From: Calditrichales bacterium MX18-03
Lineage (GTDB): Bacteria; Bacillota; Clostridia; Lutisporales; Lutisporaceae
Reading direction: 5' to 3'
NCBI GenBank assembly: GCA_021083345.1
Contig: JAJGRE010000007.1
Location: 62,001 to 126,000, forward strand
DNA length: 64,000 nucleotides
Position numbers and translations under genes: made by a program. The notes beneath the pieces are model-generated. The model was given only the letters and a program-made list of their open reading frames with translations. It had not been told where the DNA came from and did no database searches. Every line of letters begins with the position of its first letter. Position 1 is the first letter of the stretch. Shown here one piece after another: positions 12,420-53,443 of the stretch.

Positions 12420-12460
12420 ATTTGTTAAGATAGTCTTATGAAAACAGGGTCTTATGAAGA

Positions 12461-12545
12461 AGAAATGCGGCTTGACCGCATTTCTTAGCCCATGTGCCAT
12501 TTTTGAGCTTGCGAGAAAATTCTGGCACGGGCAGTTAAATCAAAG
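12461..12545 (-). ncRNA. Dispersed structured element, copy 1 (candidate RNA)
   Basis: Two stems are clear. AGAAATGCGG (12461-12470) pairs with CCGCATTTCT (12476-12485) around the loop CTTGA. GCCCatGTGCCA (12488-12499) pairs with TGGCACGGGC (12523-12532) around a loop holding TTTTTGAGCTTG, and then AGTTAAATCAAAG follows. The block recurs at 53293-53392 with changed but still paired stem bases. Read on the minus strand the element ends in a GC hairpin followed by TTCTT, like a terminator. It lies between pth and mfd. No function is known to me; the strand is inferred from the terminator-like end. Confidence 0.6.
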
Positions 12546-12606
12546 CTTGTTTTTGAATGGGAAATTTATTTTCCTATTCAAGAACAAATGCGGCTATGAG
12601 CCGCTT
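12546..12606 (-). terminator. Terminator hairpin pair after pth
   Basis: Immediately after the pth stop, GCGGC (12590-12594) pairs with GCCGC (12600-12604), with AAAA before it and ATTTGTT after it on the minus strand. A second stem of about 18 bp with two G-U pairs (12547-12564 with 12570-12587) follows. Either could end pth transcription; the second joins directly to the dispersed element. Confidence 0.65.
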
Positions 12607-53265: not shown

Positions 53266-53292
53266 CCGACTCACTCCTCTCCATTTATAGAA

Positions 53293-53392
53293 CAAAGGCG
53301 GCCTTGAGCCGCATTTGGAGCCCATGTGCCATTTTTGAGCTTGTGAGGCGATTCGCCAATCACAAATACTGGCACGGGCAGTTAAATCAAAG
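53293..53392 (-). ncRNA. Dispersed structured element, copy 2 (candidate RNA)
   Basis: It shares 12461-12545's layout. GCGGC-cttga-GCCGC (53298-53312) is flanked by paired CAAA/TTTG. GCCCatGTGCCA (53320-53331) pairs with TGGCACGGGC (53370-53379), and AGTTAAATCAAAG follows. Here the loop carries an extra nested hairpin, TTGTGA-GGCG-att-CGCC-aa-TCACAA (53341-53365), which copy 1 lacks. On the minus strand the GC hairpin and a short U-rich tail end about 25 bp before the GyrI-like start codon. An ORF reading through it on the minus strand is probably not translated. Confidence 0.6.
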
Positions 53393-53443
53393 TTTTCTAA
53401 TTGATAAGAAATGGATGGCGGTACAGCCATACATGCTTTTTTG

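Follow-up and report, generated by a model that had tools for sequence, protein, structure and literature searches.

The stretch of DNA analysed here (64,000 nt, in the following called the window) contains two copies of a repeat, at 12456-12587 and at 53287-53392, which lie on the same strand and keep the order of their parts. Copy 1 is located between pth and mfd and copy 2 between a corA-like gene and a GyrI-like gene, all four on the minus strand. An earlier note made from the sequence had described a minus-strand gene on each side of both copies as well as common blocks in the same order and on the same strand, and both observations were borne out: the 18-mer GTGCCATTTTTGAGCTTG, which is common to the two copies, is found at two places of the window when up to 3 mismatches are allowed, far beyond the 0.08 occurrences expected from shuffled sequences. 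The parts of the two copies and the adjacent host signals are as follows:

12460..12486, minus strand: HP1 of copy 1, the far-end hairpin (right end read on the minus strand), with an 11-bp stem and a CTTGA loop
12488..12532, minus strand: HP2 of copy 1, the conserved core hairpin GCCC-AT-GTGCCA ... TGGCAC-GGGC, based on covariation
12533..12545, minus strand: linker of copy 1, AGTTAAATCAAAG (on the minus strand CTTTGATTTAACT), mostly invariant or near-invariant in the ten own copies of the genome
12547..12587, minus strand: HP3 of copy 1, an 18-bp palindrome whose outer arm shares bases with the T-tract of the terminator of pth
12580..12604, minus strand: host signal before copy 1, the intrinsic terminator of pth with the tail ATTTGTTCTT
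53293..53317, minus strand: HP1 of copy 2, terminator-like on the minus strand
53320..53379, minus strand: HP2 of copy 2 with a 15-nt insertion predicted to form a hairpin of its own
53380..53392, minus strand: conserved linker of copy 2, AGTTAAATCAAAG, based on sequence and the alignment of own copies
53393..53411, minus strand: HP3 stub of copy 2, 5 bp (TTTCT/AGAAA), based on sequence; no long HP3 was found here
53415..53430, minus strand: hairpin resembling a terminator, located after the corA-like gene and immediately upstream of copy 2, found in a looser scan

The matches to the covariance model extend from 12456 to 12545 in copy 1 (86.4 bits) and from 53287 to 53392 in copy 2 (85.9 bits). 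The extent of 12461-12545 given previously for copy 1 includes the features described for it but is too short, as the copy continues into HP3. As noted before, HP1 keeps its CTTGA loop under stem change, the stem being AAGAAATGCGG/CCGCATTTCTT in copy 1 and CAAAGGCGGC/GCCGCATTTG in copy 2. HP1 of copy 1 was absent from the list of a terminator tool and was accepted on both strands by a similar script. A scan of both window copies for sigma-70 promoters found none. The sub-kind represented by L029, L033 and L034 has a 15-nt insertion in HP2 and no long HP3, and these two traits are coupled in 3 of 3 cases in this genome.

Distribution, fold and mobility of the repeat

The further copies and the covariation which the earlier note had proposed to look for with a covariance model exist in this genome and across Clostridia. 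The model R1 was built from 10 own copies, after a first genome-wide pattern search had already found further copies, and in the genome of 4.69 Mb it detected 12 copies at E<=5e-8; 3 more matches are weak (E 0.16-2.1). When this genome was searched together with 60 relatives, 14 of the 61 matched R1 at E<=0.01, namely 12 of the 22 of the own family and 2 others. Three relatives harbour 47, 22 and 15 copies, 47 being the highest number. From the 127 R1 matches, 121 were fetched and analysed and 6 were left out. At E<=0.001, a wider model, R2, built from 103 copies, had matches in 41 of the 391 genomes sampled from the class, and these belong to many families; as 11 candidates were scored per genome, the counts are low. 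The 121 copies and 74 further ones from the class search, 195 in total, were compared. They measure about 110-190 bp and carry no gene of their own. A close form of the element was found in named records of four uncultured Clostridia assemblies (26 stretches), and the same exact pattern had no match in viral contigs.

The comparison with Rfam that had been proposed was run and matched no family: with Rfam 15, nothing reached the gathering score in the window, and in 19 loci searched to E 5 the element was touched by sub-gathering hits only. We found no report of the element in the searches of open-licence papers. Judging from available excerpts, PMC8040213 and PMC6429828 list structured-RNA candidates, and PMC6429828 also mobile or repeat candidates; an unnamed earlier listing of the element in such candidate sets is possible.

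On the strand that carries the neighbouring genes, the layout is HP3, a stretch complementary to the sequence before HP3, the linker ATTTAANT, HP2 and an end domain. HP2 is the conserved core and has an AU bulge. HP1, which forms the end domain in the family of the window, is a hairpin containing a conserved mismatch. The claim that pairing is kept under sequence change holds: among 103 aligned copies, 92.8% of the cells are paired (79.3% in shuffled and 30-43% in slid controls) and 265 cells show two-sided changes (48 in shuffled and 38-60 in slid controls), and although this alignment was fitted to the model and thus favours the structure, the control values are far off. Two-sided changes are present at 21 of 24 core pairs, and the HP1 helix is 95% paired over the 103 copies, with two-sided changes in all 9 pairs. 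Counts of G-U versus A-C were 8 to 0 for the plus strand in the 10 own copies and 62 to 46 for the plus strand in the 103 copies; on the minus strand, 28 distant copies gave 25 to 30, or 20 to 19 without HP3. These counts do not settle which strand is folded. The plus strand, first read as the folded one from the 10 own copies, was withdrawn after the larger sets had been counted.

The genomic positions of the copies are not conserved. Of 21 relatives searched, 20 yielded pth, and in none of these 20 does the pth-mfd gap contain a copy. At the junction between the genes for an ABC-ATPase and CbiQ (presumably ecfA-ecfT), one genome contains two tandem copies of a more distant kind, which is described below, while the junction is plain and copy-free in 29 of the 29 relatives fetched, from 36 other matching ones. 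Further, only 2 cross-genome pairs among the 121 copies in 14 genomes have both flanking genes in common. Since the pth-mfd and ABC-ATPase/CbiQ sites are free of copies in relatives, the repeat is mobile and not a fixed RNA gene. The suggested functional RNA of these loci is thus not supported, and a single small RNA of the two window loci was rejected because of the 12 dispersed copies together with the copy-free orthologous sites. By contrast, the mobile, MITE-like unit, which had been named as one option, is well supported by the dispersal and by the copy-free sites.

Broken forms were also found: L183 and L195 consist of HP3 and part of HP2, and L037, L163 and L251 have internal deletions. 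Two loci in one assembly, L094 and L100, are near-identical duplicates, with HP3 present in one and absent in the other. L176 (G000 contig 7, 76960) and L179 are lone HP3 palindromes directly beside terminators, with no HP1-HP2. Solo HP1 units were searched for in 7 genomes and were few outside the element, with a pattern whose fixed loop length misses the HP1s of this genome. The flanking genes have the minus-minus arrangement around the copy in 67 of 121 cases, and the far-side gene points away from the element in 98 of the 116 copies having such a gene.

Docking at terminators, Shine-Dalgarno sites and -10 boxes

In the kind of element present in the window, our script places a minus-strand intrinsic terminator next to the HP3 side of 75 of 104 copies (59 of 74 with HP3 and 16 of 30 lacking it). 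At the opposite end, the two readings of this test yielded 4 and 8 of 104, and shuffled sequences gave 4.2. The test covered 104 of the 121 copies, because the own HP3 of the 17 AT-rich copies mimics a terminator and these were set aside. Copy 1 of the window belongs to the 75 terminator-docked copies; copy 2 is among the 29 of 104 without a terminator by this stricter script, while the looser scan lists the terminator-like hairpin beside it. The scripts missed the terminators of L136 and L153, which are clear by eye, and for the 46 distant copies outside the Shine-Dalgarno (SD) kind the script performed poorly (14 versus 7 in controls). HP3 itself was considered as a terminator and rejected, its T and A runs pointing the wrong way.

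The opposite end had been described as terminator-like on the minus strand, and this is true family-wide: of the same 104 copies, 78 have a far-end HP1 that resembles a terminator on the gene (minus) strand, whereas only 4 have one that does so on the plus strand. Some of the docking terminators are part of T-box leaders (L040 according to Rfam; L031, L028 and L119 by eye), and thus the copy lies between the attenuator and its gene. The distant copy L274 is also located after a T-box.

In distant relatives, HP2 and the linker are kept and the end domain is larger. In most of 28 copies it closes with GGAG-ATT(A/T)TT-ATG, the exceptions including one GTG end and one copy running into the next. 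Of these 28 copies, the 25 with a recognisable HP3 start were tested for an SD sequence no more than 15 nt away from HP3. All 25 have one, compared with 4 of 75 control windows; when the bases of the purine-rich flank are shuffled, the motif appears in 10.6 of 25. The 27 start codons after far ends of this kind (one row, L272, is not of the SD kind) are each followed by an open frame of at least 81 residues, many of them cut by the end of the locus. The downstream genes examined are unrelated; Pfam identified seven of them, as NAPRTase, Dus, PP-loop, pseudouridine synthase, Fe-ADH, carbamoyltransferase and CbiQ. With an SD of the host before HP3 and a second SD at the far end, the element lies between the host SD and the host start codon, supplying a new SD. 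The far-end motif is a near-constant GGAGATT while the host SD is variable, which suggests that the motif is carried by the element and is not a target duplication. In four head-to-tail tandems of the SD type, the junction with the younger copy falls within the GGAGA(T/A)T belonging to the resident one.

The fold of the SD kind, with helices drawn by hand from one copy, includes the SD pairing and a possible pseudoknot; over the 28 copies, 95.0% of the cells are paired (89.2% shuffled, 38-50% slid) and 23 of 49 pairs show two-sided changes, compared with 9.0 in controls. One copy of this kind, L285, lies downstream of a c-di-GMP-I riboswitch. In L286, L284 and other copies of the SD kind, the host SD faces a possible short frame from GTG AAA in HP3 to a conserved ATTTAA. 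As a trait of the SD kind, such an upstream frame was dropped, since it is missing in some copies.

The third docking position is the -10 box. In a set of 21 copies, comprising the AT-rich kind and some distant copies, which was chosen by sequence kind and partly by eye (the tandem copies L123 and L125 were left out beforehand), TATAAT immediately precedes HP3 or opens it in 20 cases, 17 of them with the sequence TGnTATAAT, and occurs again at the far end in 16. A -35-like hexamer (at least 4 of 6 positions, spacing 16-18) is present upstream in 8 of 20, while 3.0 are expected, which suggests that some, but not all, resemble host promoters. The tandems L123, L125 and L126 join at the resident copy's own motif (by eye); the corresponding search pattern gave 7 loose matches, which were not counted as tandems.

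The three kinds have in common that a stretch inside the element (an A-run, CCTCC or ATTATA, respectively) can pair with the signal preceding HP3, and that the far end bears its own copy of the signal, again complementary to a sequence inside the element. This complementarity of signal and guide is read from the sequence, and for HP3 it is partly built into the way in which HP3 was found; for the same reason the table of flank versus guide motifs of the -10 set is biased. The three far-end sequence patterns do not account for 51 of the 195 copies, including copy 1 of the window. In 67 related copies of the terminator kind (copy 1 of the window is not among them, and a few small genomes were pooled), the outer HP3 arms agree with the partner from the same copy at 7.75 of 8, compared with 6.73+-0.08 when partners are permuted within genomes (0/2000). 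Template switching during replication at palindromes could also make the arms match copy by copy. As palindrome repair could have this effect, the matching of the arms supports pairing and is not a proof of guided insertion.

Proposed mode of movement and alternative explanations

The layout of the element resembles that of the IS200/IS605 family (IS608, ISDra2; HUH Y1 TnpA). According to available excerpts of PMC5934647, the cleavage sites of IS608 are paired with guides and insertion takes place 3' of the target; excerpts of the same paper and of PMC6006769 describe that the target is kept at the left flank, that the sites at both ends are read by internal guides, that the hairpins are bound by the Y1 transposase and that a changed guide changes the target. 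As far as these excerpts go, the likeness consists in subterminal hairpins and in guide pairing of the target and the right end. The element differs in having no transposase gene, in its targets, which are expression signals, and in a longer pairing that folds HP3: the guides of IS608 are tetranucleotides at the hairpin foot, while the pairing of the element is longer and about 10 nt from HP2.

This likeness favours a non-autonomous element working in the manner of IS200/IS605. We consider it about evenly balanced whether the repeats are indeed small non-autonomous mobile elements which pair with their target by guides, move as a single strand and carry their docking signal along. Such an element would jump as single-stranded DNA, and its target would be chosen by pairing of the internal complement with the docking signal, as the ends of IS200/IS605 do; the transposase, of the Y1 type (HUH), would be provided in trans. 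The structure, the dispersal, the copy-free sites of relatives, the docking position and the second signal are observations. The docking signal is the T-tract of a terminator in the kind found in the window, the SD sequence in the second and the -10 box in the third kind. The host signal is followed by the apex of HP3, the complement of the signal, the linker ATTTAANT, HP2 and the end domain, which closes with a second, element-borne signal able to pair with an internal complement. The carried signal would keep the neighbouring gene working, and each insertion's own signal would become the target for the next insertion. We propose this mechanism only as a lead, prompted by the IS200/IS605-like layout.

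We do not file the element as a member of IS200/IS605, because PF01797 (Y1) has no match in this genome despite 12 copies, because relatives without the element have such matches too (3 of 4, in addition to 7 of 7 element-bearing relatives tested, a test that left out 4 further carriers of the same family), and because the Y1 loci are copy-free: at 20 loci fetched of 38 matches, no element was found within about 1.5 kb. The possibility raised earlier that the copies are decayed remains of a known insertion sequence found no support; none was recognised, and no copy lies at the Y1, reverse-transcriptase and TnpB loci searched. At least 3 of 5 inspected IS200-like genes are directly behind terminators by eye; in relatives, IS200-like transposase genes (L198, L200 and L210) seem by eye to be located just behind intrinsic terminators, the position at which the element of the window docks.

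With somewhat less than even odds, the three kinds form a natural, guide-programmed superfamily of tiny mobile elements, with one core, lineage-specific guides, three signals and a near-neutral insertion that makes a new docking site. If true, natural target choice would be rewritten by swapping short guides and would be aimed at three signals of gene expression, and the damage of insertion would be repaired by the element itself. This would explain much of the folded intergenic sequence in uncultured Clostridia and would be a caution against naming such leaders riboswitches. In addition, such elements would be a source of re-targetable insertion systems, and the extent of IS608-like pairing rules in nature would become testable.

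Other small repeats share features with the element. The bcr1 repeats of Bacillus cereus are structured, dispersed and chromosomal like the element. In REP/REPIN sequences with TnpA-REP, the excerpts of PMC8266576 show the same combination of many folded intergenic copies, perhaps moved in trans by a Y1 enzyme; the element, however, has no GT[AG]G foot (by eye) and differs by its three-part architecture and its docking signals. According to excerpts of PMC3049150, BOX, RUP and SPRITE of the pneumococcus are typically shorter than 200 bp and strongly folded like the element, BOX being modular and SPRITE terminator-like, as is the element. A difference would be that BOX and RUP possess inverted repeats at their termini as well as target duplications; the three are nearly confined to pneumococcus and S. 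mitis, and in these excerpts no matching far-end signal is described (PMC3049150). The element could thus be an ordinary MITE or a BOX/REP-like repeat moved by a standard transposase, with the docking positions as leftovers of selection and the HP3 arms as products of palindrome repair. We regard this as rather unlikely. Being short, intergenic, multi-copy and rich in hairpins, like BOX and SPRITE in the excerpted text of PMC3049150, and having numerous decayed copies, the element has the appearance of such a repeat, but intergenic survival alone explains neither a junction exactly at a T-tract, an SD or a -10 box nor the matching motif at the far end, and a common terminal inverted repeat was not seen when the listings were inspected by eye.

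Transposition via RNA must be considered as well. Group IIC introns insert behind intrinsic terminators. In a copy-out element moved as RNA, the internal complement would recognise its target by pairing, like group II introns do, and priming would occur at the T-tract; the choice of the target by pairing, the tie of group IIC introns to terminators and the conserved pseudoknot-like fold of the SD kind are consistent with it. We nevertheless consider this route unlikely: in contrast to group IIC introns, the element is about 110-190 nt long and no intron domains were recognised in it, 6 of the 8 carrier genomes tested, the genome with 47 copies among them, lack an RVT_1 match, no group II intron was detected by Rfam in the window (gathering score) or in 19 loci (E 5), and copies shortened at either end occur. 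RVT_1 matches were obtained in this genome (1) and in G001 (2), and the locus in this genome has no copy of the element. A group II intron as such was rejected, as there is neither an Rfam match nor a copy at this RVT_1 gene. A SINE-like retro-element primed at the T-tract is weakened by the absence of RVT_1 from the 6 carriers and by the existence of the SD and -10 docking kinds.

Finally, the minus-strand transcript could be a cis-regulatory leader that controls the next gene, and in the SD kind an anti-SD would hide the SD and overlapping pairings would act as a switch. The orientation of the far-side gene, running away from the element in the 98 of 116 copies mentioned above, and in the SD kind the covarying SD/anti-SD pairing (93-95% paired) and the overlap of helices C and D would suit such a leader, which is nonetheless quite improbable: the downstream genes examined are unrelated, the two sites tested are copy-free in 20/20 and 29/29 relatives, the kind found in the window has no SD at its end, and the count of 25 G-U to 30 A-C gives the minus strand no advantage. 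A riboswitch was discarded, because the downstream genes examined are unrelated and the sites are not orthologous; a TnpB guide RNA, because PF07282 matches in 3 of 16 element-bearing genomes only (none in 13) and no copy was found at 5 loci examined; and an integron attC-like site, suggested by the GTTRRRY-like linker, was dropped by eye.

The pth terminator before copy 1 (12590-12604 in the window) is itself HP1-like, with the sequence GCGGC..GCCGC-ATTTGTTC, and because of this resemblance it may be the leftover of an older copy. A similar hairpin is present at the same place of pth in the relative L230.
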